Source: Pseudomonadota bacterium
GTDB taxonomy: Bacteria > Desulfobacterota > Binatia > Binatales > Binataceae
Direction of reading: 5' to 3'
DNA length: 35,960 bases
Assembly: GCA_021324855.1 (NCBI GenBank)
Contig: JAJPIG010000016.1
Span: 1 to 35,960, forward strand
Shown: piece by piece, positions 11,052 through 35,365 of the stretch
How positions within the stretch are numbered: the first letter of the stretch is position 1
How the letters are laid out: each line of letters starts with the position of its first letter
The notes under the pieces: model-generated
The model's database searches: none
What the model was told of the DNA's origin: nothing
What the model saw: only the letters and a program-made list of their open reading frames with translations
Made by a program: the position numbers and the translations under genes

Positions 11052-12026
11052 TTATGGCATTCCCGGTGCGAACAGCTCTTCGATCGGAATCTTGCGCGGA
11101 ATCATCGCCTGCTCGAACATGTACGTAACCAGTGCTTCGAGCGTCGGCCGGCTTGCCTCGATTCCGTACGGCCACGGATCGTCACCGAACACTTCGCGAA
11201 GTTCATCGAGGTCGGCGGCGAGCCATGGCAGCATGTAGCGAGTCGCCCCGATGTAGCGCATCTTTTTGAGCGCGATGTCCTTCGAGCGGACCAGCGCATT
11301 GTAGAGGCTCGCGGCGATCGATGGGTTCTTGTCGTAGACATCGCGCCGGATGACGACCAGGTGCATGATCGGGAAAATCCGCGTGCGTCGGTAGAATTCT
11401 TTCTCGACCTCGCGAAAATTCGGAAACAGCCGCTGGACATCCGGGTTCACGCCGAACGCCGCGGGAATTTCAGCGCCGGCGATCGCATCGATCCCACCGC
11501 TCTCGAGTAACTGGCTGAGCGACTTGTCGCTCCGGTTGTTTTCAATCGAAACGGGCTTCAAAAGCGGCAGCACGGTCGGGCTGCCATGCGAGCCCGGGCT
11601 GTTGGTCGCCCCCTGCACCCAATGAATTTTCGACAGGTCGACGCCGTAGTCATGCTGAAGATGGCCGCGAATCCAGATGGCCGCGCTCATCGTGTAGAGC
11701 GGCACGCCGACCCGCTTGCCTTCTAGATCCTTTGGACTGCGGATACCCGCGTTGCGATTGATGAAGATGAAGCTGTGGCGGAAGACGCGCGACGCAAAGG
11801 CCGGGATCGCAACGAACGGGCTCTGGCCGGCCACGGTCCGCGCAATCAATTCTGAACTCGACATCTCGCAGGCATCGAATTCGAGCTTGCCCGCCATTCG
11901 ATCGAAGATTTCGCGCGGCGAATCGATCACGAGGAACTTGAGATCGATTCCTTCCGGCTTCACCTCGCCGGTATAGAGCGGCACCATCCGATCGTAGAGC
12001 CCGCACGCGAACGTTAGTGCAGTCAT
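11052..12026 (-). CDS. 4,5-dihydroxyphthalate decarboxylase-like protein (type II periplasmic-binding-protein fold)
   Basis: 324 residues from ATG 12026. Typical segments are RMVPLYTGEVKPEGIDLKFL at the N-terminus, EMSSSELIAR, FVAIPAFASRVFRHSFIFIN, DLEGKRVGVPLYTMSAAIWI, FPIMHLVVIRRDVY and DPWPYGIEASRPTLEAL. These match Pht5-type 4,5-dihydroxyphthalate decarboxylases, which use a solute-binding-protein fold. No signal peptide or lipobox is present, which favours a cytoplasmic enzyme over a transporter component. Related family members are often misannotated as ABC substrate-binding proteins. The downstream paralogue at 34368-35342 has exactly the same length. The start is 11 bp after the stop of the upstream LLM gene, so the two probably form one transcript. 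The substrate is unknown. Confidence 0.78.
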   Translation of the reverse strand: MTALTFACGLYDRMVPLYTGEVKPEGIDLKFLVIDSPREIFDRMAGKLEFDACEMSSSELIARTVAGQSPFVAIPAFASRVFRHSFIFINRNAGIRSPKDLEGKRVGVPLYTMSAAIWIRGHLQHDYGVDLSKIHWVQGATNSPGSHGSPTVLPLLKPVSIENNRSDKSLSQLLESGGIDAIAGAEIPAAFGVNPDVQRLFPNFREVEKEFYRRTRIFPIMHLVVIRRDVYDKNPSIAASLYNALVRSKDIALKKMRYIGATRYMLPWLAADLDELREVFGDDPWPYGIEASRPTLEALVTYMFEQAMIPRKIPIEELFAPGMP

Positions 12027-12037
12027 GGTCGAGGACC

Positions 12038-12883
12038 TCATCGCGAGAGTTGGCGCGCAACCGCGGCGCATCGATCGAGTATCGGCAGCATGGTTTCGCG
12101 CGCTTCCGATGGCACCTGGAACACGATTCGTTCAATCGGCAAATCGATAATCGCGGCCAGCTTCGCAGCATCGATCGGCGTTGAGACCACGTTGACGGCG
12201 AGCGAGTCGGGCGTCCGGCCGGCGCGCGCGGCGGCGCTGCGAAAGGCGTCGATGCCGGCGCGCAGATCGAAATTGCCGAAGCCGAAGCCGGGGAACCATC
12301 CGTCACAATACTGCGCGGCGCGCTCGATCGTACGCGGCGTATGGCCGCCGAGCAGGATCGGCGGACCACCGGCGCGTTTCGGCTTGGGATTCGAGATGAT
12401 CGGGTCGAAATTGACCACGCTGCCATGAAATTCGGGCTCGGCGGAGTTCCAAATCGCCTTGAGCGCCATCACATGCTCACGCAGCACGTCCCATCGCTGT
12501 TTGGAAGAGACACCGTGGTTCAGATTCGCCTCGGGAATTCCGCCCGCGCCTACGCCCAGGATGAACCGTCCGCCTGACAATTGATCGAGCGTCGCAACTT
12601 CTTTCGCCAGCACGATCGGATCGCGCTGCACCACGACCATCACGCACGTGCCGAGCATGATTCGGCTGGTTGCGCCGGCCGCCGCGGTCAGCGCGATCAG
12701 CGGGTCGAAGGTGTTGAAAAACGGCTCGGGCAGCGGACCGCCGAAGGGCGACTTATGGCGCTTCGGAATATGCGTGTATTCAGCCAGAAACAGCGATTCG
12801 AGGCCGCGCTCTTCGATCGCGCAGGCAAGCTCGCTCACAGCCATCGAGGAGAGCGTGACCTTGGTTTGAATCCCGAATTTCAC
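12038..12883 (-). CDS. Luciferase-like (LLM class) F420/FMN-dependent oxidoreductase
   Basis: 281 residues from GTG 12883, chosen because MKFGIQTKVTLSS is the usual LLM N-terminus and AAAGGTG lies just upstream. Recognisable elements are GLESLFLAEYTHIP, RIMLGTCVMVVVQRDPIVLA, TLDQLSGGRFILGVGAGGIP, NPKPKRAGGPPILLGGHTPR and AAQYCDGWFPGFG. The TIM-barrel family uses reduced F420 or FMN. Bacterial members catalyse oxidation/reduction or monooxygenation of diverse substrates, so the exact role is open. It is the upstream partner of the DHP-decarboxylase-like gene (11 bp apart) and divergent from the cupin at 12999. Confidence 0.85.
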   Translation of the reverse strand: MKFGIQTKVTLSSMAVSELACAIEERGLESLFLAEYTHIPKRHKSPFGGPLPEPFFNTFDPLIALTAAAGATSRIMLGTCVMVVVQRDPIVLAKEVATLDQLSGGRFILGVGAGGIPEANLNHGVSSKQRWDVLREHVMALKAIWNSAEPEFHGSVVNFDPIISNPKPKRAGGPPILLGGHTPRTIERAAQYCDGWFPGFGFGNFDLRAGIDAFRSAAARAGRTPDSLAVNVVSTPIDAAKLAAIIDLPIERIVFQVPSEARETMLPILDRCAAVARQLSR

Positions 12884-13445: not shown

Positions 13446-13584
13446 AGCCACGCTGTTCTTCAATCGTTGCCCCCGAGGAGCTGCGCAAAAGCCGATCGCC
13501 ATCGCATCGCTCGATCACTTGCCGAACCGATAAGAGCGTGATGTATTGCGCTCGATTTCCAATCGCGACGCTTCGGAGGTTCGC

Positions 13585-14295
13585 ATGAAGACGCAAACCC
13601 TTGAATACAAGCACGATGGTGTTACGTGCCGGGGACTTCTCGCCACCCCCGACGGCTCCGGCAAACGGCCGGGCGTGCTGGTGTTTCACGAAGCGCCGGG
13701 ACTCGATGAACATGCCAAAAAGCGGGTTGGGATGCTGGCCGAGCTTGGCTACGTCGCGCTCGGCGTCGATATGTACGGCGACGGCAAGGTTACTATGGGC
13801 CCCGAGGCGCTCGAGCTGATGAACGCGGTGAAGAACGACCGGCCGAAATTTCTGGGTCGGCTGCGCGCCGGCTACGAAGCGCTCGTCGCGCAATCGAACG
13901 TCGAGAAACGCCAGCTCGCCGCGATCGGCTACTGCTTCGGGGGCTATTGCGTGTTGGAGCTGGCGCGCAGCGGCGTCGATCTCGCCGCGGCTGTTACTTT
14001 CCACGGTCTGCTCGAGACCCAGAATCCCGCGGCGGCCGGCAAGGTCAAGCCGAAGATTTTGGTCTGCACGGGCGCGGAGGATCCGCTGGTGCCGGCTGCG
14101 CAGGTGCTCGAATTCGAAGACGAGATGACCAAGGCGGGCGTTGACTGGCAGGTAATCACCTACAGCGGCGCGAAGCATGCCTTCACCAACACCGGCGCCG
14201 ATCAGATTCCGTTCCCAGGCTTCGGGTATCATCCGTTGGCCGACCGGCGCTCGTGGGCCGCGATGCGCGGATTGTTTTCCGAGGTTTTCGCGTAG
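13585..14295 (+). CDS. Dienelactone hydrolase family protein
   Basis: 236 residues from ATG 13585 with CGGAGG upstream. An alpha/beta hydrolase with the dienelactone-hydrolase triad: nucleophile C117 in GYCFGGYC, D166 in CTGAEDPLVP and H198 in SGAKHAFTN. E36 in VFHEAPGLDEH corresponds to the conserved Glu36 that gates the Cys in DLH. The reaction in characterised relatives is hydrolysis of 4-carboxymethylenebut-2-en-4-olide to maleylacetate in the chlorocatechol pathway, although many family members act on other esters. A maleylacetate-reductase-like gene is in the same window (22878), which makes a DLH-type role more plausible but not proven. 32 bp upstream of the SDR. Confidence 0.87.
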   Translation: MKTQTLEYKHDGVTCRGLLATPDGSGKRPGVLVFHEAPGLDEHAKKRVGMLAELGYVALGVDMYGDGKVTMGPEALELMNAVKNDRPKFLGRLRAGYEALVAQSNVEKRQLAAIGYCFGGYCVLELARSGVDLAAAVTFHGLLETQNPAAAGKVKPKILVCTGAEDPLVPAAQVLEFEDEMTKAGVDWQVITYSGAKHAFTNTGADQIPFPGFGYHPLADRRSWAAMRGLFSEVFA

Positions 14296-14327
14296 GACTC
14301 CACGTCGTTGTCATTTAGGAGGAACGC

Positions 14328-15083
14328 ATGATGCTCGATGGTCGAGTGGCAATCGTGACCGGCGGCGCGCGCGGGCTCGGACAGGAATACAGCGTCGCGT
14401 TGGCAAAGAACGGCGCCAAAATTGTGGTCGCCGACATCCTGCCCGGCGATACGACCGTGGCGAAAGTCGCTCAGGCTGGCAGTGAGGCGATCGCGATCAA
14501 GACCGACGTTTCGAGCGAAACGGCGACGCGCGCGATGGCCGAGGAGGCGCTTCGGCGCTTCGGACGCATCGACGTGCTGGTCAACAACGCGGCCGACCTC
14601 GGACGCTGGGTCGCATTCGACAAGATCACCGAGGCTGAATGGGACCGCGTGATGGCGATCAACGTCAAGGGCATCTGGAACTGCTGCAAGGCGGTGGTGC
14701 CGGCGATGAAGCGCCAGGGCAAGGGCAAGATCATCAACGTGTCATCCGGAACCATCTGGATGGGTACGCCGCTCTATCTGCATTACGTGGCGTCGAAGGG
14801 CGCGGTCTTCGCGATGACGCGCTCGCTCGCACGCGAGCTTGGCGGCGACGGCATCAACGTGAATACCCTGACGCCGGGCTACACGATGACCGAGGCAGCG
14901 ACCAGTCTCGGCGACAAGGAGAGCGTCGAGCTCGTGAAGCGCGAGCTGCTGAATTTGCAGGCGATCAAGCGCAACGAACAGCCCGCCGATCTCGCGCCCA
15001 TGGTCGTCTTTCTCGCTTCCGACGGGAGCGACTTCATCACCGGGCAAGCCTTCAACGTCGACGGCGGCGGCGCGCTTCACTGA
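14328..15083 (+). CDS. Short-chain dehydrogenase/reductase (classical SDR)
   Basis: 251 residues with a strong AGGAGG before ATG 14328. The classical SDR pattern is complete: TGGARGLG (11-18) cofactor motif, ADIL acidic residue after beta2 that favours NAD(H), VNNAAD (85-90), N112, catalytic S139/S140 and Y153-x3-K157 (YVASK). The C-terminal TPGYTMTE and GQAFNVDGGGAL are typical. It oxidises or reduces a secondary alcohol or ketone, cytoplasmic. Its last bases overlap the convergent amidohydrolase gene by 7 bp. Confidence 0.9.
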   Translation: MMLDGRVAIVTGGARGLGQEYSVALAKNGAKIVVADILPGDTTVAKVAQAGSEAIAIKTDVSSETATRAMAEEALRRFGRIDVLVNNAADLGRWVAFDKITEAEWDRVMAINVKGIWNCCKAVVPAMKRQGKGKIINVSSGTIWMGTPLYLHYVASKGAVFAMTRSLARELGGDGINVNTLTPGYTMTEAATSLGDKESVELVKRELLNLQAIKRNEQPADLAPMVVFLASDGSDFITGQAFNVDGGGALH

Positions 15084-21501: not shown

Positions 21502-22884
21502 TCAGCCTTTAATTGAAGGAGAGGCGGTGCGCAGAATCGCCATGAGCGCTTGAGCGTCCTCGGCCTCGGCGAACTGCGATGCCCCCAACGCCAGCGCTTC
21601 GGCATGATTGGGCGCCAGTACGCGTTCGGCGAGTGAGCGGAATTTGCGACCGATCCGCTCGGCGTCTGCTTCCGCCGCGTGCCCTTCTCTTTGGATTCGC
21701 CGCCCGTCTACAAGCTCGATCTCGATCCGCGCTGCGAAGCCCTCGAGATCGCCGCTCACGATGTAGCCGACGCGGCCGGCAACCGCGATTAACTCGGGGC
21801 GACTGCGCGCGGATTCGGAGAGCGTATCGAGATCGACACGGCCGTCGACCAGCGCGGCTCCAACCTGAAACGGCAGGCTTGCGATCGCCTGGAGCGTCGT
21901 CGCGGGCCGCCGTTTTTCGGCCGCCGGCTCGCATACGATCGGCACTGCCCAGGGCGCAACCGTGCAGGTCACGCGCCGCGCCATGTCGGGTTCCAGCCCG
22001 AGGTCGGCACGCATCGCGAGCGCGAGATCGATATAGGGATGGATCACGTGGGCGCAAGGATAGAGCTTGAAGAGCGCGCTCTCGCCGAGCCATCGCTCGC
22101 CGAGCCGGGCGGTGATCGCGTGAAAGTCCGCCGGCGGGTGGCCGAGAAAGGTGTCGTAGAGATTATGCCGCCCGTCCAGGGCGCCGGCCGGCCCGCGAAA
22201 TCCCTGCTCGGCGAGTTGGGCCGCAAGGATGCCGCCGAAATTACCCCAACCGATGTGCAGCCACTTCGACCAGGAGCCGTCGGCGAGAAAAGCCATCAGG
22301 CCGCCGGACATGCTGGCCGCAAGACCGACCGCAGCGGCGATCGATTCGATTTTCAGATGCATCAACTTGCTCGCAACGAACGCAGCTACGACGGGCGCAA
22401 AAATCCCGGAGGCATGAAAGCCGCGCTCGTGAAAACGTCGGCCGCCTGCGTGCGCGATGCGGGCCGCAATCTCGTAGCCGCCGGTAATCGCGGTCAGGAT
22501 TTCCACGCCGGATGCGCCGCGCTCCTCGCCAATCGCCAGCGCAACCGGGACTACGATGCTGCCCGGATGAACCACCGAGTCCGGAAAAGTGTCATCGTAA
22601 TCGAGACAGTGCGCGATGATACCGTTGGCAAAGGCCGCCCACTCGGCGGGCACGCCCGCCCCGCCCCCGACCACGGTCGCGCTGCCGGCGCCGCCCCGGA
22701 CCGCGCGAGCGCGTGCGATAACCGCCGCTTCGGACTGCGATGCGCCCAGCATCAGGCCGAGTGTATCGAGTAATCGCAGGCTCGCGAGGTCCCGGTCCTC
22801 GCTCGGAATCGTGCGCCACGTGAGACGGCTGAGCCATCCGGCCAGCCGCATCGCAAGAGGTTCGTCGGCACCGGCCCTTACCAT
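21502..22884 (-). CDS. MmgE/PrpD family protein
   Basis: 460 residues, the usual length. Typical MmgE/PrpD segments are RDLASLRLLDTLGLMLGASQ, FANGIIAHCLDYDDTF, VVHPGSIVVPVALAIGEERG, RGFHASGIFAPVVAAFVASK, KWLHIGWGNFGGILAAQLAE and KLYPCAHVIHPYIDLAL. The family includes 2-methylcitrate dehydratase, cis-aconitate decarboxylase and iminodisuccinate epimerase; it works on di- and tricarboxylates without a metal. In this operon a dicarboxylate breakdown product is a reasonable substrate, but that is inference. The start overlaps the end of the upstream iron-ADH gene by 7 bp, so the pair is translationally coupled. It is the last gene of the Rieske operon. Confidence 0.88.
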   Translation of the reverse strand: MVRAGADEPLAMRLAGWLSRLTWRTIPSEDRDLASLRLLDTLGLMLGASQSEAAVIARARAVRGGAGSATVVGGGAGVPAEWAAFANGIIAHCLDYDDTFPDSVVHPGSIVVPVALAIGEERGASGVEILTAITGGYEIAARIAHAGGRRFHERGFHASGIFAPVVAAFVASKLMHLKIESIAAAVGLAASMSGGLMAFLADGSWSKWLHIGWGNFGGILAAQLAEQGFRGPAGALDGRHNLYDTFLGHPPADFHAITARLGERWLGESALFKLYPCAHVIHPYIDLALAMRADLGLEPDMARRVTCTVAPWAVPIVCEPAAEKRRPATTLQAIASLPFQVGAALVDGRVDLDTLSESARSRPELIAVAGRVGYIVSGDLEGFAARIEIELVDGRRIQREGHAAEADAERIGRKFRSLAERVLAPNHAEALALGASQFAEAEDAQALMAILRTASPSIKG

Positions 22885-24053
22885 GCGGCCCGCACCAGCA
22901 TTTCGATATCGGCGACTGTCGTCGGCATCGGCACGTTCGCCATCATGTAGTCATGCTCAGCCTGGCGCGCGATTTCGGGTAGATCGTCGGCAGGGATCGC
23001 GAGATCGCGAAGCCGGCTTTTCAGCGGCAATCGTGCGATTAACGCAGACATCAGATCGGCCGCCATCTGCGCCATCCGATCTATCGGGATGTTGATGTCG
23101 CTGGCGCCCATCGCTTGCAGCACGAGTTTTTGGCGCTCGCCCATCACCGAGATGAAGCGGCGCATCGCCGGGGCGATCAGGATCGCGTGCGAAACGCCAT
23201 GCTGGAGCGCATAGCGGCCGCCGACGATGTGCCCGAGCGCGTGCACGACGGAGACCATCGCGTTGATCGCCGCGACCCCCGACATCGCGCAAGCGACCTG
23301 GCACTGGTAGCGCACCTCGACGTTCGCCGGTTCTTCAACGGCTCGCGGCAGGTTGCGATAGAGCAGGCGCAGCGCGTGCAAGGCGAGGCCCTCGGAAAAC
23401 GGATTGCGATTGACCGAGTAGAGCGATTCGACAGCGCGCGCAACTGCGGTCATTCCGGTCGCCGCGGTCAGCGGAGCATCGGTATGAATTGTCAGCTCCG
23501 GGTCGAGAATCGCGGCGCTCGGCACGAGCGCGTCATCCCAGAATAGCAGCTTGCGGCGTTTGTCGACATCGCGGATTCCCGCCGTCGGCAGCACTTCGCT
23601 CGAGGAGCCGGCAGTGGTCGGGATTGCGATATGCGTGATCGTGGGACCGTCTATCAAATCGCGCTCCATCGTGCCGTCCGGATGGTAGCGAATCACGTAC
23701 GGATCAAGACGGCCCGCGGTCTTTCGTAGCAGCGCCGCGCCCTTGCCCGCATCGATCGCGCTGCCGCCGCCGACACTGACGATCGCGTCGGCATGATTGC
23801 GATCGATCAGGCCGATGATCGACTGGACCATCGGCAAGGGCGTGTGCGGCGCGACCTGATCGAAAATCCCGCAGCAGAGATCGCCGAGCGCAGCGCGCAC
23901 GCGGCGCAGGATCGGTCCCGATGCGACCGTCCGTCCGCACAGCACCAGCACGCGATGCGCTCCGAGTTCACCCGCGACCTCGGCGAGCGACGCGACGCTG
24001 CCGGCGCCGAGAATCAGCCGGTTTGGCCAGGTTTGCACGCGAATCGGATTCAT
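22878..24053 (-). CDS. Iron-type alcohol dehydrogenase / maleylacetate reductase-like protein lacking two metal ligands
   Basis: 391 residues from ATG 24053; a TTG at 24080 overlapping the previous stop is the alternative start. NAD(P)-binding GGGSAIDAGKG (95-105) and IPTTAGSSSEV (144-153) are present. Of the four metal ligands of group III ADHs, the two His are kept (H271, H285, 14 residues apart). The Asp and His of the GMDALAHA motif are replaced by T202 and R206 (GMTAVARAVESLY). The ESLYSVNRNPFSEG stretch resembles maleylacetate reductases, a branch with relaxed metal dependence. A maleylacetate-reductase-like or metal-free reductase is therefore more likely than a classic Fe-ADH. It is coupled by overlap to the asparaginase-like gene upstream and MmgE/PrpD downstream. 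Confidence 0.8.
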   Translation of the reverse strand: MNPIRVQTWPNRLILGAGSVASLAEVAGELGAHRVLVLCGRTVASGPILRRVRAALGDLCCGIFDQVAPHTPLPMVQSIIGLIDRNHADAIVSVGGGSAIDAGKGAALLRKTAGRLDPYVIRYHPDGTMERDLIDGPTITHIAIPTTAGSSSEVLPTAGIRDVDKRRKLLFWDDALVPSAAILDPELTIHTDAPLTAATGMTAVARAVESLYSVNRNPFSEGLALHALRLLYRNLPRAVEEPANVEVRYQCQVACAMSGVAAINAMVSVVHALGHIVGGRYALQHGVSHAILIAPAMRRFISVMGERQKLVLQAMGASDINIPIDRMAQMAADLMSALIARLPLKSRLRDLAIPADDLPEIARQAEHDYMMANVPMPTTVADIEMLVRAAW

Positions 24054-24076
24054 GAAATTTCGCCGCCTGGCGACGA

Positions 24077-25093
24077 TCAAAACTGGTTGAGAATAGCCTG
24101 AATTCCGTCACGATGCCGCACGGAAGCGAGCGCCAACATGAGCAAAATGCGCGCTTTAGGCGGACTCAGGTCGCGGGCGTTGAGAAACCCGTCGCGGGCC
24201 GCGTCTGCCGCAGGCTCGACGATCCCTTTGATCGCGCGGCTCGCGAGCACCACGGCGATGCCGCGGCGCGCCGCGTTCACCAACTCCGCGCGCTCGCGAT
24301 TGGCGGGACGTCCCGGCGGCAGGCCAGCCGAGACGATTCCGCGCGCGCCCGCGGCGACCATCGCTTTGACTGCGGCGCCATCGGCGCCCGCATACGAGTA
24401 GACGATATCGACCCGCGGCAGCGAACGCAGCCGCTCCAGGCGCCATGGACGCCGCGGCGGCAGAGGCACGGGCCGGCGGCGGATGACGACCGCGCCATCG
24501 GCGGCGACACGACCCAGCGGACCATACTCAGGACTCTGAAACGCATCGAGATCATGGTTCGCGAGCTTGGTCACCGAGCGCGCCTCATGAATCTGGTTGT
24601 TCATCACGACCGTCACGCCGCAGCCCGAAAGCGCCGGGCTTGCCGCGGCGAGAATAGCAGCACGGAGATTCGGGCCAGCATCGCTACCGGCGGTATTCGG
24701 CGGCCGCTGCGCGCCGGTGATGACGATTGGCTTCGGGGTGATGACGGTGAGCGCGAGCATCCATGCGGTCTCTTCGAGCGTCGCGGTGCCGTGCGTGATG
24801 ACGATGCCGGCGAGGTCACGCCGCTTCGCGAGCCGCGCGACAAGCTTTGCCAGCGCGAGCCAGTCGTTGACGATGATCGCAGTGCTGCCGATACGCCGGA
24901 ACGGAACCGCCTCGATGGCGACATCGGGAAGCAGGTCAGCGAGCTCGTGCAGCACCTCGGCGGCATCGCGAACGATTCCCGATTCGGCGTAATCGACCCA
25001 GTCGTAAGGATGGCGACCGACCATCGCGATCGTCCCACCCGTGCTGACCAGCGCGACTTTGGGACGCGAGAGGCTGGTGCCTGATGGAGCCAT
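24077..25093 (-). CDS. Asparaginase-family amidohydrolase with altered substrate-binding Asp
   Basis: 338 residues from ATG 25093 (in-frame TTG at 25096). The two-domain asparaginase fold is clear: STGGTIAMVG with nucleophile T21 (Thr12 of E. coli AnsB), Y35 (Tyr25 position), S70 region, ITHGTATLEETA with T103 (Thr89), K176 (Lys162) in SVTKL, and EYGPLGRV. The residue after T103, Asp90 in AnsB, is A104 here. Asp90 holds the alpha-amino group of asparagine, so the loss argues against L-Asn as substrate and for an amide or other acyl compound lacking that group. No signal peptide, so cytoplasmic. It sits between the cupins and the MAR-like reductase in the Rieske operon. Confidence 0.83.
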   Translation of the reverse strand: MAPSGTSLSRPKVALVSTGGTIAMVGRHPYDWVDYAESGIVRDAAEVLHELADLLPDVAIEAVPFRRIGSTAIIVNDWLALAKLVARLAKRRDLAGIVITHGTATLEETAWMLALTVITPKPIVITGAQRPPNTAGSDAGPNLRAAILAAASPALSGCGVTVVMNNQIHEARSVTKLANHDLDAFQSPEYGPLGRVAADGAVVIRRRPVPLPPRRPWRLERLRSLPRVDIVYSYAGADGAAVKAMVAAGARGIVSAGLPPGRPANRERAELVNAARRGIAVVLASRAIKGIVEPAADAARDGFLNARDLSPPKARILLMLALASVRHRDGIQAILNQF

Positions 25094-25133
25094 CAATCCG
25101 CCCCATCTGGAGCGGCGGCGCGGAGAATGCGGC

Positions 25134-25478
25134 TCACTGCGGATTGTCGAGCGCCTTCAACGCGACGCGGTACAGCACGCCATCGTCGCTGACGCATCGC
25201 CAGACGTGCGGCTGATCTTGATCGATTGCGGCGGCCTGACCGGCGTCGAGCGTGCGGGTTTCGTCATCAAAGATAAGCTCGAAGCGCCCCTTCACGATCG
25301 CGCCGACCTCCTCGGTCCAACCCGCGGGCGTGATCGGCGCCGCGATGCGTTCATCGCGAGCGCAAACCGCGATGGCGGCGACCAGCGTGTTGCCGGTCTC
25401 GATGAGTAGACGCGATTCGCCGTCAGTACCGGCGCGCGCGATCACGGCAGCGGCGTTGAGCAGCTTGCAGCTATTCAT
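25134..25478 (-). CDS. Small cupin-like protein
   Basis: 114 residues; its ATG overlaps the stop of the upstream cupin by 4 bp (ATGA at 25475-25478), so the two are translationally coupled. Cupin-like strands EEVGAIVKGRFELIFDD and GQAAAIDQDQPHVWRCVSDD are visible. Only one metal-type His (H in QPHVW) is obvious, so metal binding is doubtful. It may be a structural partner or a divergent ethanolamine-utilisation-type cupin. No function can be assigned. Confidence 0.68.
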   Translation of the reverse strand: MNSCKLLNAAAVIARAGTDGESRLLIETGNTLVAAIAVCARDERIAAPITPAGWTEEVGAIVKGRFELIFDDETRTLDAGQAAAIDQDQPHVWRCVSDDGVLYRVALKALDNPQ

Positions 25479-25894
25479 GGATTCGGTTTTGCAGGCACGT
25501 CGGCGAGCGGATAGAACGGCGCGGCGTCCTTCGCGACAAATTCCGCGCGCGGCGGCGACACCACATTGAGCCGCATGGAGACGCCGCTCTCATCGAAACG
25601 ATTGTTGCCGTAATGCGAGCTGCCCGCTGGGATCAGCAATGCGTCGCCGGCCTCCATTCGGAACTCGGCCTCGGGATTGTCGTCGGGCTGAAACACCGAA
25701 CATCCGCCGGTTAGCTGGAGCGAGGCCTCCTCGCCATGGCTGTGCGCGCGCGCTTTGAGCGATGCGCCTCCCGGCGCCACGAACTTCACGACCGAAACGC
25801 TGATGCGCAGGGTTGAAAAATTTTTAGTATAGAGCCCGCCCTCGACGACCGGAAGCAGCCCTTCATCGATCGTGAAGATTCTGCAGCGCGCCAT
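25475..25894 (-). CDS. Cupin-domain protein
   Basis: 139 residues from ATG 25894. Motif 1 is RAHSHGEEASLQLTGGC, giving His-x-His and a Glu. Motif 2 is AGDALLIPAGSSHYG with its His. The pattern is complete, so it probably binds a divalent metal. In catabolic operons such cupins are often ring-cleavage dioxygenases or isomerases, but one-domain cupins of this size may equally be accessory. It lies 11 bp after the small helical protein gene and overlaps the next cupin by 4 bp. Confidence 0.78.
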   Translation of the reverse strand: MARCRIFTIDEGLLPVVEGGLYTKNFSTLRISVSVVKFVAPGGASLKARAHSHGEEASLQLTGGCSVFQPDDNPEAEFRMEAGDALLIPAGSSHYGNNRFDESGVSMRLNVVSPPRAEFVAKDAAPFYPLADVPAKPNP

Positions 25895-25905
25895 CGACCG
25901 TAGTC

Positions 25906-26253
25906 CTACATGCGCGGGCGCAACGGAAAATCCTCGTCGGCGACGAAGCGATGGGTATCGTAGCCGTCGGGCACATCGGGCCGATGATAAAACTCAACCG
26001 CCGGCGCGACTTCCGCCACCGACAACAGCATCCAGTAGAGACGCTGCCATTGGGGGGGCATCGCATCGAGCGGAAATTCGTTCAGTCTCGCCACGATCTC
26101 ATCGAACCGCGCCAACATCGCATCGACGAACGCTTCGATGTCCGCAACGGTGCTTTCATACCGATGATGATTGCGCGCGGTCTCGGTTGACAGCGCCCAA
26201 TGCGCGAACGGTTCGAGCGCGGCGAATTCAGACGGAAGGATTCCCGATGTCAC
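25906..26253 (-). CDS. Conserved small helical protein coupled to the Rieske oxygenase, unknown function
   Basis: 115 residues from GTG 26253, which overlaps the oxygenase stop as GTGA, so translation is coupled. The larger open frame starting upstream is discarded because it lies antiparallel to nothing similar and reads through the oxygenase. The predicted protein is mainly helical: AALEPFAHWALSTETARNHH, TVADIEAFVDAMLARFDEIV, QWQRLYWMLLSVAEVAPAVE, ending in an acidic/aromatic tail (FYHRPDVPDGYDTHRF). It does not look like the cone-shaped beta subunit of ring-hydroxylating dioxygenases (those are ~170-190 residues, beta-rich). I do not recognise a family. A dedicated partner or chaperone of the oxygenase is possible. 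Confidence 0.72.
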   Translation of the reverse strand: MTSGILPSEFAALEPFAHWALSTETARNHHRYESTVADIEAFVDAMLARFDEIVARLNEFPLDAMPPQWQRLYWMLLSVAEVAPAVEFYHRPDVPDGYDTHRFVADEDFPLRPRM

Positions 26254-27557
26254 GATAATCCCACCTGCGCCCGGGCCTCGCCCTCTCGGATCAGCCGCTC
26301 GACGACGTGGGCGTTGTGACGCACCATCACTTCGTAGTCGTGCAGGATCATGTGGGTCTTCGGTCCGGTCTCGCATCCGGCCTGAATCTGCTCGAGCGTG
26401 CCGAGGTCTTCGAGCAGCACATCGCGCAGCACACACTTCATATATTCCTGATAGAAGCGGCCGCCGGCGTTTTTCATCTCGGGATAATAAACGCGCGCAT
26501 CGAACAGCGTCCGGTTATGCGCGATGGGCCTGAAGTTGTACGCCTGGTAATAATTCGGACGCGTCGAAACGTAAAAATCCGGGAAGAAGACGTTGATGTC
26601 GAAAACCCAGTCGGGATCCTTTCGCCAGTTGATGCCCGGCGGCAGGTCGGCCGGATTGAACGAAAGCTTTGTCGCGCCGCGTCCCGCCCGAAGCGCCGCG
26701 CTCGCGATTTTGCCAACGCGCTGCGTGCCGGCCTGGGCGGTCGATTTATCGACCGTCGTGGCGGCCTTCGGATTGCCGTAGACGGTCTTTGGATTTCCCG
26801 CCATCGAAAGCCGCCGATGAACATCACCGCACAGGCAATCGATCGGGAGCATGCTGCCCTCTTCGTCGCTGCGTAGCGCATCCGCTATCGATCGGCCATG
26901 GACGTAGCGCACGTGATAAGTCTCCTGGAACGCGTCCAGCGCAAGCTTCCAGTTGCAGTTCACGACCGTGCGCCATCGATAGCAGTTGGTCATCTTCTCG
27001 AACGGATAGCCTTCGAGGTCGGCATAGACCGGCCGCAGGAAGTCGTTCAGCGACATCGCGGGATGCGGGTCGACGTTGACGAAGATGAAACCTTGCCACA
27101 GGTCCGCGCTCGCCGGCGTCATTCCGCACTGCTCACGGTCGAGGCCGCTGAAATACTTCTCGTCGGGAACGCCGACCAACCGCCCGGTCAAATCGTAGGA
27201 CCATCCGTGGAACTTGCAGTTGAGGCGGCGGACCGAGCCGCGCGATTCGTAAACCACCTTGTTCAGCCGATGCGAGCAGACATTGTGCAGCGCCCGGATG
27301 ACACCGTCGTGTCCGCGCACCACGATCAGCGAGGCGTCGGAAGCCGGCAAATCGACGACGAAGAAATCGCCCGGGTTCGGGATCTCGGACTCGCGCCCGA
27401 CGTGCTGCCATACGCGTTTGAAGATATGGCGCTTTTCGAGTTCGAAGTATGCGGGCGAAATGTAGGGCTCGACCGGCAGCACGCCGCTGCCCAGCTCGGG
27501 GAAACGATCGCGCATCCGCGAGAGTTGGCCCCCGCCGTTGTTGGCCGTCGCGTCCAT
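26250..27557 (-). CDS. Rieske non-haem iron oxygenase, catalytic (alpha) subunit
   Basis: 435 residues from ATG 27557 (AGGA upstream). The N-terminal Rieske domain has CSH (C94, H96) and CKFH (C114, H117), a CxHx17Cx2H pattern that binds the 2Fe-2S cluster. The catalytic domain has NWKLALDAFQETYHVRYVH with D208 and facial-triad H215 and H220. Around residues ~255-300 there is an unusual Gly/Lys/Thr-rich insertion (GNPKAATTVDKSTAQAGTQR) not typical of the family. These enzymes insert O2 into aromatic or alkyl substrates or demethylate; ferredoxin and reductase partners are needed and are not in the window. First gene of the seven-gene operon down to 21502. Confidence 0.88.
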   Translation of the reverse strand: MDATANNGGGQLSRMRDRFPELGSGVLPVEPYISPAYFELEKRHIFKRVWQHVGRESEIPNPGDFFVVDLPASDASLIVVRGHDGVIRALHNVCSHRLNKVVYESRGSVRRLNCKFHGWSYDLTGRLVGVPDEKYFSGLDREQCGMTPASADLWQGFIFVNVDPHPAMSLNDFLRPVYADLEGYPFEKMTNCYRWRTVVNCNWKLALDAFQETYHVRYVHGRSIADALRSDEEGSMLPIDCLCGDVHRRLSMAGNPKTVYGNPKAATTVDKSTAQAGTQRVGKIASAALRAGRGATKLSFNPADLPPGINWRKDPDWVFDINVFFPDFYVSTRPNYYQAYNFRPIAHNRTLFDARVYYPEMKNAGGRFYQEYMKCVLRDVLLEDLGTLEQIQAGCETGPKTHMILHDYEVMVRHNAHVVERLIREGEARAQVGLS

Positions 27558-27693: not shown

Positions 27694-28935
27694 ATGACGG
27701 GAACAGCTCAGCGCAGATGGATAATCGTCGGTGGCCTCTTCGTGACCATCGTGATTCTTTTCGGCGGCTTTCTGAACTTCGGCGTCTTCTTCGAGCCGCT
27801 GCGCAGCGCGTTTAACTGGAGCCATGCGCAGACCTCGCTGCTGCTTACCGCGCTCGTGCTGTCGCTGACGGTCGCGAGCCCGTTGGTCGGCCTGATGCTC
27901 GAGCGGGTCGAGGCGCAAACCTCGATGCTCATCGGCGCGATCCTGGCGAGCGTCTCGTATTTCATCGCGAGCAAGGCCGCCGGCTACGGACTGATGCTCG
28001 CCGCGTTCATCATCATGGGCATCGCTCTCGCGATGTCCACACTGGTACCCGCCCAAGTCATCGTCGCCAACTGGTTCGAGGAGCGCCTGCGCGGCACCGC
28101 CTTCGGGATCGCCGCGGCCGGGACCGCCTTCGGCGGCTTCGCGATGGTGCTGTTGGCGGATGCGACACTGCGACGCTGGGGATGGCGCGGCGCATACATC
28201 GCCTCGATTGTTCCCGTCGTCGCGGTCGTGATTCCGCTGATTCTGTTCGTCATCCGTACACGCCCGCCCGAAGGCGCTGTGCAGGGTCACGCGGCGGGTG
28301 AAGTGCCCGGGCTTGAAATCGGCGAAGGCTTCCGCAGCGCCGCCTTCTGGCTCATCATGGCCGCCTACGCCTGCTATGGATTCGCAGTCGGACTGCCGGT
28401 CGCGCACGTAATTCCGTTCTTCATCAGCATCGGGCTGACGCCGCATGAAGGCGCGATGCTGATTGTATGGTACGAAGCCGTCGGCACCGTCGCGAGCCTC
28501 ATCATGGGCCTGTTCGGCGATCGGATCGGCGGCAAGTTCGTGCTGTCGCTTTGCTTCGTGATGATGGCGGTGAGCTTCTGGGCGTTGCTGGGCGCAAGCT
28601 CGCCGGCGCTCCGAGTACTGTTCGTAATCCTGTTCGGATTTTCCGTGGCATCCCCGACCGGGTTGCTCGCGATGCTGCTCGCACAGACGCTTGGCCTCAA
28701 ATCGTTCAGCTTTTTCTCAGGCGCCGGCCAGTTCGTGCTGTTCTTCGGATTGTCATTCGCGCCATTTGTCGGCGGATGGATCGTCGATGTGACTCACAGG
28801 TATCGCGATGCATTCGGACTCTGCGCGCTGCTCGCATTGATCGGCGCGTTCGTTAGCCTCGCGGTTGCGGCGCCCAGGATCGGCGCAGCTGCGGAAAATG
28901 CCGGAGTTGAGCAAGTGGGCGCGAGCGCCCGATGA
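27694..28935 (+). CDS. MFS transporter (OFA/monocarboxylate-like)
   Basis: 413 residues from ATG 27694. About twelve hydrophobic segments are visible, the first being WIIVGGLFVTIVILFGGFLN. The pattern of FFEPLRSAFNWSHAQTS after TM1 and VANWFEERLRGTAFGIAAAG after TM4 is typical of the OFA/MCT branch of the major facilitator superfamily that carries carboxylates. It sits in the inner membrane, probably importing an organic acid substrate or exporting a product. It is divergent from the Rieske operon and its stop overlaps the next gene's ATG (ATGA at 28932-28935), so transporter and LLM are translationally coupled and likely share a substrate. Confidence 0.87.
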   Translation: MTGTAQRRWIIVGGLFVTIVILFGGFLNFGVFFEPLRSAFNWSHAQTSLLLTALVLSLTVASPLVGLMLERVEAQTSMLIGAILASVSYFIASKAAGYGLMLAAFIIMGIALAMSTLVPAQVIVANWFEERLRGTAFGIAAAGTAFGGFAMVLLADATLRRWGWRGAYIASIVPVVAVVIPLILFVIRTRPPEGAVQGHAAGEVPGLEIGEGFRSAAFWLIMAAYACYGFAVGLPVAHVIPFFISIGLTPHEGAMLIVWYEAVGTVASLIMGLFGDRIGGKFVLSLCFVMMAVSFWALLGASSPALRVLFVILFGFSVASPTGLLAMLLAQTLGLKSFSFFSGAGQFVLFFGLSFAPFVGGWIVDVTHRYRDAFGLCALLALIGAFVSLAVAAPRIGAAAENAGVEQVGASAR

Positions 28936-29960
28936 GCATCCAGTTCGGAATACGACTGCCGCCTTGCGAGCCGGTGCGCACGATCGCCGATGCGGCGGCG
29001 CGCGTCGAGGCCGCCGGCTTCGATTCGGTATGGGTTCCCGACTCGCAGTTGCTGTGGCGCGACGCGTGGGTCACGCTGTCGGCGGTCGCGCTCGCGACCA
29101 CACGAATCAAAATCGGCATCGGGGTGACCACGCCGATCACCCGGCATCCGACGGTCACCGCGTGTGCGATTACCTCGCTCAACGAGCTTGCGAACGGCCG
29201 CGCGCTCCTCGGTATCGGCCAGGGCGACAGTTCCGTGCGTCTCATCGGAGTGCGGCCGAGCCGGCTCGCCGAGATGCGCGACACGATCCGGCTGATCCGC
29301 ACGCTCAGCGCCGGCCAATGGATCGATTACGCCGGCCGCCAGCGCCGGCTGAAGAGCGCAGAAGGCCGCACCACCGCGCCGCCGATCTATCTGTCGGCTT
29401 CCGGGCCGAAGATGCTGCAGGTGGCAGGCGAACTTGCCGACGGGGCGATTCTCCTCGCGGGCATCGACCGCGACAACGTGGATTACGCCATTAACAACGT
29501 CCGCACCGGCGCCGAACGCGCGGGCCGCAAGCTGAGCGACCTCGACATCATGCTCGGCGCCTATTGTTATGTCGGCGCGGACTGGCGCGATGCGCGCAAG
29601 CTCGCCCGTCCTTACGCGGCGCTATTTTCGATGCATTGGCCCGAGGTGTTGAAAGCGGTCGGCATTCCGGTGCCTGAGCCGCGCCCGATGCCTGATCTGT
29701 ATCCCGACGTGAACCATTGCGAGGACTGGGATCGCGCGGTCGCGGCTACGGACTGGGTGCCCGATGACGTGCTGGACCTGTTCTGCGCGAAATATACTTT
29801 GATGGGTACCGCGCGCGAGATCGTCCAGAAGCTTGAATTAGTACTCGACCGCGGGATTACTCACTTCTATCTGCTCGGCTTCAAGTCATACGAACTTCCT
29901 ACCGATGTCGCGAATCTGTTTGCGCAGCAGGTAATACCCTACTTCCGTTCCAAACGCTGA
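28932..29960 (+). CDS. Luciferase-like (LLM class) F420-dependent-type oxidoreductase
   Basis: 342 residues; its ATG overlaps the MFS stop by 4 bp. Features are IQFGIRLPPCEPVRTIADAA, AAGFDSVWVPDSQLLWRDAW, RIKIGIGVTTPITRHPTVTA, LNELANGRALLGIGQGDSSV and PIYLSASGPKMLQVAGELAD. The bulge after VTTP and the ASGPK motif resemble F420-dependent methylenetetrahydromethanopterin-reductase-like members. Direct coupling to a transporter suggests it acts on the imported compound. It converges on the SnoaL-like gene 9 bp away. Confidence 0.86.
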   Translation: MSIQFGIRLPPCEPVRTIADAAARVEAAGFDSVWVPDSQLLWRDAWVTLSAVALATTRIKIGIGVTTPITRHPTVTACAITSLNELANGRALLGIGQGDSSVRLIGVRPSRLAEMRDTIRLIRTLSAGQWIDYAGRQRRLKSAEGRTTAPPIYLSASGPKMLQVAGELADGAILLAGIDRDNVDYAINNVRTGAERAGRKLSDLDIMLGAYCYVGADWRDARKLARPYAALFSMHWPEVLKAVGIPVPEPRPMPDLYPDVNHCEDWDRAVAATDWVPDDVLDLFCAKYTLMGTAREIVQKLELVLDRGITHFYLLGFKSYELPTDVANLFAQQVIPYFRSKR

Positions 29961-30455: not shown

Positions 30456-31649
30456 CTAGATTTTCCCCAGTCGATGGGGAGTGTGCGGATGCGAATGATC
30501 GAACTGCTCGTAATGCTGCCGCAGCAGATCCTTGCCATAGTCATTGCCGTTCGGGGTTCGCACCAATGTATGAATGTGATTGCGTGTATGCTCGTCGTTG
30601 TCGAACGCGATTCCGGTCTGATGATCGAACTCGATCAGGATAACGGGGCTGTGGATTCGATAATAAAAAGGGCTCACATCGTTGACCGGGCCGATCCAGG
30701 CGAAATAGGTCTGGTCGAGATGCGCCTTCACTTCCTCGAGCCTGATTTCGGCATGGCCCGGACGGATGCGGCCGACGTAGACTTCAATCAGCCGCATCAG
30801 AAGCGCGCGCTGATCATCAGCGAGTTCGTCGTATCGGATGCCTTCGTACTTCAGTTGCAAGTTGTCACGGAAGGCGGTGGTGAACACGTCGAACGGAAGC
30901 TCGTTGCCGATGATCGCCCTGGCCTGCTGCCCGGGGGTGAGACTTTTCATCAGCGCAAAGCCGCCGGCTTCCTCGTTGTGAAAGACGCGCGTGCCGGCGT
31001 ACTTTCCGCTCTCGGCGTAGACCGGCTCGGAGCCCATGAAATTCGGCGTCATCACGATCTGATCGCCGAGCACGAAACAATTGATAATCAGATGATGGCC
31101 GTCAATCTGCCAGCCCCACGGCTTTTCACCCGAGGGAGTTCCGAACACGCTCATCCAGTACATCCATTCGCCATACTCTTCGTCGCGGCCGGTGATCTCC
31201 CGGATGGTCTCGTTGAGCTTCATCACGCCGCGCGCGGTCTCGTAACCGGCGGCACTCAGGCTCGCGCGAACCATCCCGAGCGCAGCGCTTTTCTGGTCGT
31301 CATTCATGTCGTCAAGGCAGACGCCGTGCCGCACCAGGTACGGATGGACGTTGCACCATAGCTGCCACGCCTTGTCATCGATGCCGAAGGTGGCCGCCTT
31401 GCGCTGCTCGGAATTCAGAGTTGCGAGGAAACGCTCGGTCGCATCGATGATCGGCTGTACCGAGATGCCGGTCTTGCGCAGCGAAAAGAGACCCGGCGCC
31501 GGCTTACCGTCTGTCGTGATGCCGACAAACGGGTTGGCGAGCATCTCTTGGGCACGCGCCATGTAGGTCGGCAGCACGCCTTTGGGAGGCAATTGAAACG
31601 GATGTTTCGCGGGAGTCGGTGGACGGTTGCGCACTTTCGGAGCAGCCAT
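30456..31649 (-). CDS. DUF3500 domain-containing protein
   Basis: 397 residues from ATG 31649 with AAGGAG upstream. The characteristic segments of DUF3500 are present: WGWQIDGHHLIINCFVLGDQ, TPNFMGSEPVYAESGKYAGT, GGFALMKSLTPGQQARAI and SPFYYRIHSPVILIEFDHQT. The last part (HTRNHIHTLVRTPNGNDYG) is also conserved. The His pairs (GHHL, HxH) suggest a metal site. The biochemical function of the family is not established to my knowledge. No signal peptide is present. Located between the alpha/beta hydrolase and SnoaL-like genes on the same strand, it may belong to the same pathway. Confidence 0.82.
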   Translation of the reverse strand: MAAPKVRNRPPTPAKHPFQLPPKGVLPTYMARAQEMLANPFVGITTDGKPAPGLFSLRKTGISVQPIIDATERFLATLNSEQRKAATFGIDDKAWQLWCNVHPYLVRHGVCLDDMNDDQKSAALGMVRASLSAAGYETARGVMKLNETIREITGRDEEYGEWMYWMSVFGTPSGEKPWGWQIDGHHLIINCFVLGDQIVMTPNFMGSEPVYAESGKYAGTRVFHNEEAGGFALMKSLTPGQQARAIIGNELPFDVFTTAFRDNLQLKYEGIRYDELADDQRALLMRLIEVYVGRIRPGHAEIRLEEVKAHLDQTYFAWIGPVNDVSPFYYRIHSPVILIEFDHQTGIAFDNDEHTRNHIHTLVRTPNGNDYGKDLLRQHYEQFDHSHPHTPHRLGKI

Positions 31650-34367: not shown

Positions 34368-35342
34368 CTATTTCCCCGGATCGATGAAGATCTCTTCCGG
34401 CGTCAGCATCCGATGGCAGGTACCCTGCTCATACGCGTAACGGAGGAACGCTTCCAGCGTGCTGCGATTCGGATCGATTCCATACGGCCAGTAATCACGT
34501 CCGAACATCCGGCTGGAAACGTCGATCGCATCTGAAATATAGAGCGCGGGGATTGGCGACGAATCGTTTACCTTCAAACGTTCGATGCTCGCCTGTTTGG
34601 CGCGCTCGAATGCTGCGTAAAGGCTCGACGCGACCCACGGATGCGCGCGCACGATCTCGGCCTTGATCGCGATTACGTGCATGATTGGAAAGATGCCGGT
34701 TACGCGCCAATATTCCTCTTCGCGCTGCATGAAATCCGGCAGCAGCCGGACGATGTCGCCGCTGCCGTCCTCGAAAGCCTGCGGCGGATGCGCCGACATC
34801 ACGGCATCGAGCTCGCCCGCGAGCAGCATCGCATTCAGCGATTGGTCGCGAACCGGTGTGAGCGCCACGCCCGGCGGTAATCGCAATGCAACCTTCTCAG
34901 CGCGTCCTGGCTGGTTCACGCCCGCCTGGAACCATCGAATCTCGTCGAGTTTGAGTCCCGCGTGACGCGCGAGATAGCCGCGCGAGTAGATCGCCGCGGT
35001 CTGCGCCCATTCGGGAACGCCGATCCTCTTGCCGCGCAACTGCTCGAGTCTTCGCAAGTCCGAGCCGCGCCGCACATAGATCGATGAAAGCCGGAAGACG
35101 CGCGACGGGAAGACCGGCAGCGCCGTGATCGAATCATCTCCCTGCGAGCGCATCGACGAATACTTCCCGAACGACATCTCCGAAACGTCCCATTCGCGGT
35201 AGCGTGTGAAGCGATGGAAGATCTCTTCGATCTGGAGTTCGAGTCCGACCAGCCGGATGCCATCCGCCGCGATTCTCCCGCGCGTCAGGTCACGCGTGTG
35301 ATCGTAGTCGCTTAGTGCGAGCGTGAGCTGAAGCTGATTCAT
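34368..35342 (-). CDS. 4,5-dihydroxyphthalate decarboxylase-like protein, second paralogue
   Basis: 324 residues from ATG 35342, exactly the same length as the paralogue at 11052-12026 but clearly diverged. Shared landmarks: EMSFGKYSSMRSQGDDSITA, ALPVFPSRVFRLSSIYVRRG, LRGKRIGVPEWAQTAAIYSR, GIFPIMHVIAIKAEIV (the FPIMH motif) and YWPYGIDPNRSTLEAFLRYA. No signal peptide is seen, so again probably a cytoplasmic enzyme of the Pht5-like group with a solute-binding fold. It lies 23 bp downstream of the TenA/PqqC-fold gene on the same strand, forming a pair. Confidence 0.78.
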   Translation of the reverse strand: MNQLQLTLALSDYDHTRDLTRGRIAADGIRLVGLELQIEEIFHRFTRYREWDVSEMSFGKYSSMRSQGDDSITALPVFPSRVFRLSSIYVRRGSDLRRLEQLRGKRIGVPEWAQTAAIYSRGYLARHAGLKLDEIRWFQAGVNQPGRAEKVALRLPPGVALTPVRDQSLNAMLLAGELDAVMSAHPPQAFEDGSGDIVRLLPDFMQREEEYWRVTGIFPIMHVIAIKAEIVRAHPWVASSLYAAFERAKQASIERLKVNDSSPIPALYISDAIDVSSRMFGRDYWPYGIDPNRSTLEAFLRYAYEQGTCHRMLTPEEIFIDPGK

Positions 35343-35365
35343 GTCGCGCGCGCAGCGGAGCAGGC

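Follow-up and report, generated by a model that had tools for sequence, protein, structure and literature searches.

The 35,960-bp window analysed here, which is the whole of contig JAJPIG010000016.1 of a Binataceae bacterium (assembly of 3.75 Mb in 38 contigs), carries seven closely packed open reading frames (ORFs), all on the minus strand and running from 27557 down to 21502. Five of them, encoding the alpha subunit of a Rieske oxygenase, a 115-residue protein of no known family (p115), two cupins (A and B) and an asparaginase-like amidohydrolase, are a conserved catabolic core, and this region of the window is a copy, reduced in gene content, of a widespread catabolic module. The other two genes, for an Fe-ADH family protein and an MmgE/PrpD family protein, are local additions outside the conserved module, because none of 34 orthologous loci carries them. 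The substrate and chemistry of the module we infer; the reading that we favour, with some hesitation, is that it oxidises a nitrogen-containing aromatic acid and that an amide intermediate is then hydrolysed, a general amide or N-aromatic interpretation that names no substrate.

Conservation and spread of the module

One genome collection was scanned with an alignment of the Rieske protein and gave 36 loci, of which 32 showed 58-66% identity. These 32, together with two plasmids found by tblastn (Azospirillum ramasamyi and Paroceanicella profunda), make up the 34-locus set, in which flanks of up to 10 kb were examined per locus, less near contig ends. Excluded from the counts were four loci of 30-40% identity (L082, L084, L088 and L090) and a remnant (L054), and some of the 34 loci depend on one another (L058 and L087 belong to the same strain; L053 and L059 are almost identical). 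While the Rieske gene is present in 34/34 by design, as the scan query, p115, cupin A, an NTF2-like protein and a ferredoxin reductase were also found in every locus. Cupin B, a ferredoxin and the asparaginase were each found in 33, the sole locus lacking the asparaginase being cut by a contig end, and DHOD- and PyrK-like genes occurred in 29. The order Rieske, p115, cupin A, cupin B, reductase, NTF2, PyrK, DHOD, ferredoxin, asparaginase is shared by 20 loci, and seven more differ in that the reductase is located upstream on the opposite strand. A plasmid of Cupriavidus necator C39 retains a remnant consisting of p115, cupin A and 26 Rieske residues (tblastn). The hosts belong to several proteobacterial families from soil and marine settings and include Paraburkholderia, Caballeronia, Cupriavidus, Herbaspirillum, sphingomonads and Rhodobacterales.

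By contrast, the window's Fe-ADH, MmgE/PrpD, MFS, luciferase-like (LLM), DUF3500 and SnoaL proteins had no match in any of the 34 loci (E 1e-4, 40% coverage). The initial annotation had read all seven genes as one dedicated, undescribed degradation pathway, completed by the divergent MFS and LLM genes. The unbroken one-strand packing with overlapping junctions favours such a seven-gene pathway, but it is improbable given the absence of Fe-ADH and MmgE from every orthologous locus, which rules out the seven as one conserved set; moreover, among the matches to these two proteins listed for the window's class at E 1e-40 or better (Fe-ADH 30-39% and MmgE 28-42% identical), no two lie side by side. 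What survives is the co-conservation of the other five genes and the existence of a conserved module for which no description was found in the open literature, most subscription journals lying outside that search; the seven-gene border and the inclusion of the MFS and LLM genes do not hold. The accessible parts of two papers on indole catabolism (PMC12538310, PMC9871250) give gene sets that do not match the module.

In a Rieske tree of 58 rows, from which pieces shorter than 300 residues and one stop-containing tblastn piece each from L094 and L109 had been dropped, the window protein and 34 others formed one clade (support 100/100), with the window protein branching first and the other 34 grouped with weaker support (94/85). 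In the window's class (148 genomes), identity above 45% at E 1e-20 or better was reached by the window's own asparaginase and by no other. Relatives of p115 were present in 13 of 57 near relatives, the window genome included (43 matches), and a stricter p115 search of 297 genomes drawn from the phylum, differing from the former in draw and cut-off, gave a match in the window genome only. This distribution fits horizontal spread of the module.

The Rieske oxygenase and its electron supply

The alpha subunit (435 aa; 26250..27557, minus strand) matched both Pfam domains of ring-hydroxylating alpha subunits, Rieske (PF00355) and Ring_hydroxyl_A (PF00848), and the residues of its CxH...CxxH motif (C94, H96, C114, H117) and of its Dx(6)Hx(4)H-type motif (D208, H215 and H220) were invariant in comparison with three orthologues. 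No Pfam match to the Ring_hydroxyl_B beta subunit was obtained among the seven operon proteins, the MFS and the LLM, and the enzyme is therefore not assigned to the alpha-beta type; the NTF2-like protein of one orthologous locus (L052) is SnoaL_4 by Pfam. Identity as anthranilate 1,2-dioxygenase was rejected on scores of 89 against a cut-off of 671.9 (TIGR03228) and 79.1 against 750 (AndAc).

Linked ferredoxin and reductase genes argue for a three-component Rieske system in the orthologues. The window operon is without the reductase, NTF2, ferredoxin and DHOD/PyrK genes of those loci, and of these the ferredoxin, reductase and DHOD were used as queries against the genome, none of them matching on the window's contig. 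A single DHOD match elsewhere in the genome (30% identical) may be the biosynthetic enzyme. These absences, together with the early branching of the window Rieske protein, could mean that the window copy is decaying or serves another reaction after transfer. We regard this as unlikely, since none of the seven ORFs is disrupted, their junctions show overlaps, and ferredoxin homologues are encoded elsewhere in the genome (42% at contig C21).

The small protein p115

The gene for p115 (25906..26253, minus strand) follows that of the alpha subunit. The protein has no family in Pfam, NCBIfam or PHROGs; a PDB sequence search gave three matches, none significant (best E 1.3), and a Pfam search of 33 members gave inconsistent families (best E 0.0089). 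Foldseek returned nothing at E 0.001 or better, and the best Z of 5.2 among its own candidates was uninformative. The AlphaFold2 model has five helices at a mean pLDDT of 86.1, falling to averages of 57, 66 and 59 in the blocks from residue 91 onward. This tail nevertheless contains V94, G97, F103 and P113, which are invariant across 33 sequences, and because it is conserved yet not confidently folded alone in the model, it hints that p115 binds a partner.

Among the 43 p115 matches, 22 had their flanks read (20 loci plus two further copies in the window's own genome), and a Rieske ORF adjoined p115 in 21 of these. The exception, a copy on contig C34 of the window genome with no Rieske homologue in 20 kb, means that the association is not absolute. 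This p115-like ORF (9757-10041 of L132, G000:C34:86000-105999) lies about 3.5 kb from an intradiol dioxygenase (13510-14445), the window genome's only match to that enzyme (47% identical to the Azospirillum protein). Of 20 plasmid records of p115, 12 have an adjacent Rieske gene (ten from fetched regions and two from coordinates); the others are one Cupriavidus remnant and seven partial matches (77% of the query) on Sphingobium and Sphingomonas plasmids, one of which was inspected. In that one, plasmid pSRL1 of Sphingobium indicum B90A (L108, 3971-4333), a p115-like ORF (37% over 77% of the query) stands after linC and an EthD gene and beside IS6100 in a lindane-degradation cluster, in a stretch with no annotated Rieske gene.

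Clusters containing a p115-Rieske pair span differing pathways. In Variovorax WDL1 the pair accompanies genes annotated as 2,5-dihydroxypyridine dioxygenase, isochorismatase family and molybdopterin subunit, and in Novosphingobium an acetamidase/formamidase gene lies beside it. Acinetobacter plasmid pYUSHP14-1 (L094, 4321-11747) carries genes for an acetamidase/formamidase, Rieske alpha, p115-like protein, NTF2, styrene/indole monooxygenase, flavin reductase, SDR, ferredoxin and reductase; this cluster may encode a further N-aromatic route. A further pair in the window genome (8772-11356 of L135, G000:C14:18000-37000) adjoins an ORF with weak acetamidase/formamidase likeness (25% identity). 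We tentatively propose, as something short of probable, that p115 is the first of a new class of Rieske partners. Small and helical, it would dock on the alpha subunit by its conserved flexible tail, would replace a beta subunit or ferredoxin-docking factor, and would mark N-aromatic-degrading Rieske systems with dedicated amidases. A putative physical partnership is suggested by gene linkage and by the conserved, low-confidence tail.

The asparaginase-like enzyme and the cupins

The asparaginase-like protein (24077..25093, minus strand; Pfam Asparaginase N and C domains) and 33/33 orthologues retain T12, Y25, S58, T89 and K162 (E. coli AnsB numbering), among which we take Thr12, Tyr25, Thr89 and Lys162 to be catalytic. 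In the same proteins, Asp90, presumably the residue that binds the alpha-amino group, is replaced by Ala, as the label 'Asp-lacking' had correctly indicated, and Asn248 is replaced by Arg. The position of Gln59 is occupied by T in 21 orthologues and in the window and by V in 12, while that of Glu283 holds F, Y or W in orthologues and Asp in the window, where the stretch is poorly aligned. Type II L-asparaginase identity was rejected, with Ala at position 90 and a score of 230.6 against the NCBIfam cut-off of 314.3. Loss of Asp90 is not a mark of the module alone, as four other asparaginases of the window's class have N or A there and share much of the changed pattern. The changed pocket is thus only suggestive as to substrate, and the amide hydrolysis step of the initial annotation, which the enzyme and its pocket support, is a prediction from sequence.

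Both cupins are Cupin_2 proteins. Cupin A (25475..25894, minus strand) keeps the metal-binding pattern HxHGEE...H, of which HxHGEE and a later His are conserved in orthologues. Cupin B (25134..25478, minus strand) lacks the HxH motif and was rejected as a metal dioxygenase on that ground. Cupin ring cleavage, reduction and dicarboxylate processing had also been suggested for the operon; these putative steps derive from gene names.

Possible function of the module

Several linked genes bear on function. An aromatic-acid MFS transporter is linked in 21/34 loci and a TRAP permease in six, and such acid carriers make an organic acid a plausible substrate. An intradiol dioxygenase is linked in 7/34 (catB in five, pcaD in four), and since these ortho-cleavage genes occur in three lineages (Azospirillum, Rhodobacterales and Cupriavidus) they suggest catechol as a product, which is probable for the seven loci concerned. 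Molybdenum (Mo) hydroxylase subunits are linked in 7/34, and an EthD gene in 20/34. In the route that we favour, a Rieske oxygenase with p115 bound would oxidise a nitrogen-containing aromatic carboxylate on its N-bearing ring carbon or on an adjacent one, preceded in some hosts by the Mo hydroxylase. The products would be catechol or a similar diol, destined for ortho cleavage where the genes are linked, and a carboxamide that, unlike asparagine, has no alpha-amino group and would be hydrolysed by the asparaginase-like enzyme. In the window's organism electron-transfer proteins would have to be encoded at other sites in the genome, and a downstream acid may be processed by Fe-ADH and MmgE. 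The presence of acetamidase/formamidase, an amidase unrelated to asparaginase, beside other p115-Rieske pairs supports the amide interpretation.

Several points weigh against this interpretation. No intradiol dioxygenase was found within the fetched flanks of 27/34 loci; it leaves unexplained what DHOD/PyrK, NTF2, the cupins, EthD and the racemase-family protein do; loss of Asp90 also occurs in the four other class asparaginases; and the window has no linked ferredoxin and reductase, nor its genome an HcaD-type reductase (best match 28%, partial). Substrate and product are, in addition, predictions from gene content.

Alternatively, the module may follow a pyridine- or pyrrole-type route, in which the Mo hydroxylase and the p115-Rieske enzyme would hydroxylate an N-heteroaromatic acid, the ring would open, the asparaginase-like enzyme would convert maleamate to maleate and an Asp/Glu-racemase-family protein would convert maleate to fumarate. 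In nicotinate breakdown these last two reactions are performed by NicF and NicE, and maleamate is asparagine without its amino group. An Amdase/EutA-family gene in 17/34 loci, whose two cysteine motifs (NCTAA and SCAGI) do not vary among 16 sequences, would suit this route, as would the Mo-hydroxylase genes and the annotations around the WDL1 pair. However, the NicX- and NicF-like proteins of WDL1 were matched in 0/34 loci (E 1e-4, at which distant homologues could be missed), so that membership of the nicotinate (nic) lower pathway was rejected; the sole ring-opening candidate is possibly cupin A, and the linked catechol genes are not accounted for. We therefore consider this route doubtful.

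Layout of the run and other features of the window

All seven ORFs were confirmed at the positions first given, with Pfam families for all but p115. The Rieske and p115 genes overlap by 4 bp, p115 and cupin A are 11 bp apart, the cupin genes overlap by 4 bp, cupin B and the asparaginase are separated by 40 bp (ATG at 25093), and the Fe-ADH and MmgE genes overlap by 7 bp. Of four overlaps claimed initially, these three hold, while that between the asparaginase and Fe-ADH depends on the start: 4 bp of overlap from TTG 24080, or a 23 bp gap from ATG 24053, the start whose upstream stretch is richer in purines. The packing predicts that a single transcript is likely for all seven genes; promoter and terminator scans gave chance level only, and an Rfam search gave no match reaching gathering scores.

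The Fe-ADH protein (22878..24053, minus strand; Pfam Fe-ADH) had been called similar to maleylacetate reductase (MAR). The family is right and the MAR likeness weak: among solved chains it comes closest to a bifunctional aldehyde/alcohol dehydrogenase (E 2.2e-49) and to methanol dehydrogenases (E 1.6e-41 and 1.7e-40), ahead of a chain that bears just the name 'MAR1' (E 3.1e-30) and of chains labelled maleylacetate reductase (E 1.3e-26 and 5.9e-26), and no curated MAR model was among its curated-model matches. Aligned with its relatives, the protein has Thr in place of Asp and Arg in place of His at two of four positions that we take to be metal ligands in those relatives. The MmgE/PrpD protein (21502..22884, minus strand; Pfam MmgE_PrpD N and C) has iminodisuccinate epimerase and cis-aconitate decarboxylase as nearest solved chains; identity as 2-methylcitrate dehydratase PrpD was rejected (57.7 against a curated cut-off of 950).

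Upstream, on the plus strand, lie the divergent MFS transporter (27694..28935; Pfam MFS_1) and the LLM oxidoreductase (28932..29960; Pfam Bac_luciferase). A DUF3500 protein, from a family of unknown function (E 2.9e-106), is encoded at 30456-31649 between SnoaL-like and alpha/beta-hydrolase genes. The nearby 'meta-cleavage hydrolase' of the initial annotation is a generic alpha/beta hydrolase by Pfam. Two similar-looking proteins (11052-12071 and 34368-35345), neither with a Pfam match at E 1e-5, presumably resemble 4,5-dihydroxyphthalate-decarboxylase-like binding proteins.

Implications

The usual description of a Rieske system is an oxygenase of alpha or alpha-beta type served by electron donors. 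The occurrence of p115, with no named family or recognised fold, beside many Rieske alpha subunits points to a component that may have been overlooked, and an overlooked small partner could account for failed heterologous expression. As the module hosts named above are cultivable, the substrate should be findable, and an asparaginase with an altered substrate site may prove a useful amidase. The initial annotation had thus seen a real, apparently undescribed module with the wrong borders, the electron-transfer genes of its relatives being invisible from the window.

Comparison with known systems

The module resembles three-component Rieske dioxygenases such as HcaEFCD and AndAabcd in its Rieske alpha subunit and, in the orthologues, in adding an HcaC/AndAb-like ferredoxin and an HcaD/AndAa-like reductase. 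It differs in having p115 after the alpha gene in place of a Ring_hydroxyl_B beta subunit, and the window alpha subunit scores far under the curated cut-offs of HcaE (109.4 against 830) and AndAc (79.1 against 750). The asparaginase-like enzyme shares with type II L-asparaginase (AnsB) both Pfam domains and the four catalytic residues, whereas Asp90, Gln59 and Asn248 are replaced and its score is below the NCBIfam cut-off. The iad auxin operon of Variovorax, according to the accessible part of its description, likewise combines a Rieske alpha subunit (IadD) with a small partner (IadE) and a reductase, and acts on an N-heteroaromatic acid (PMC10374108); IadE is, however, a mixed seven-stranded sheet protein while p115 is predicted to be all-helical, and that part of the source mentions neither asparaginase nor cupins. 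Finally, a precedent for the favoured route is riboflavin catabolism, in which, as given in the accessible part of the report, a quinoxaline is opened to a catechol by a Mo hydroxylase followed by a Rieske dioxygenase (PMC12746152). The lum operon responsible is similar to the module in placing a Mo hydroxylase, a Rieske dioxygenase and a catechol dioxygenase in series, with a later cupin hydratase, but LumC and LumD are alpha and beta subunits, and the lum amide hydrolyses without an enzyme.

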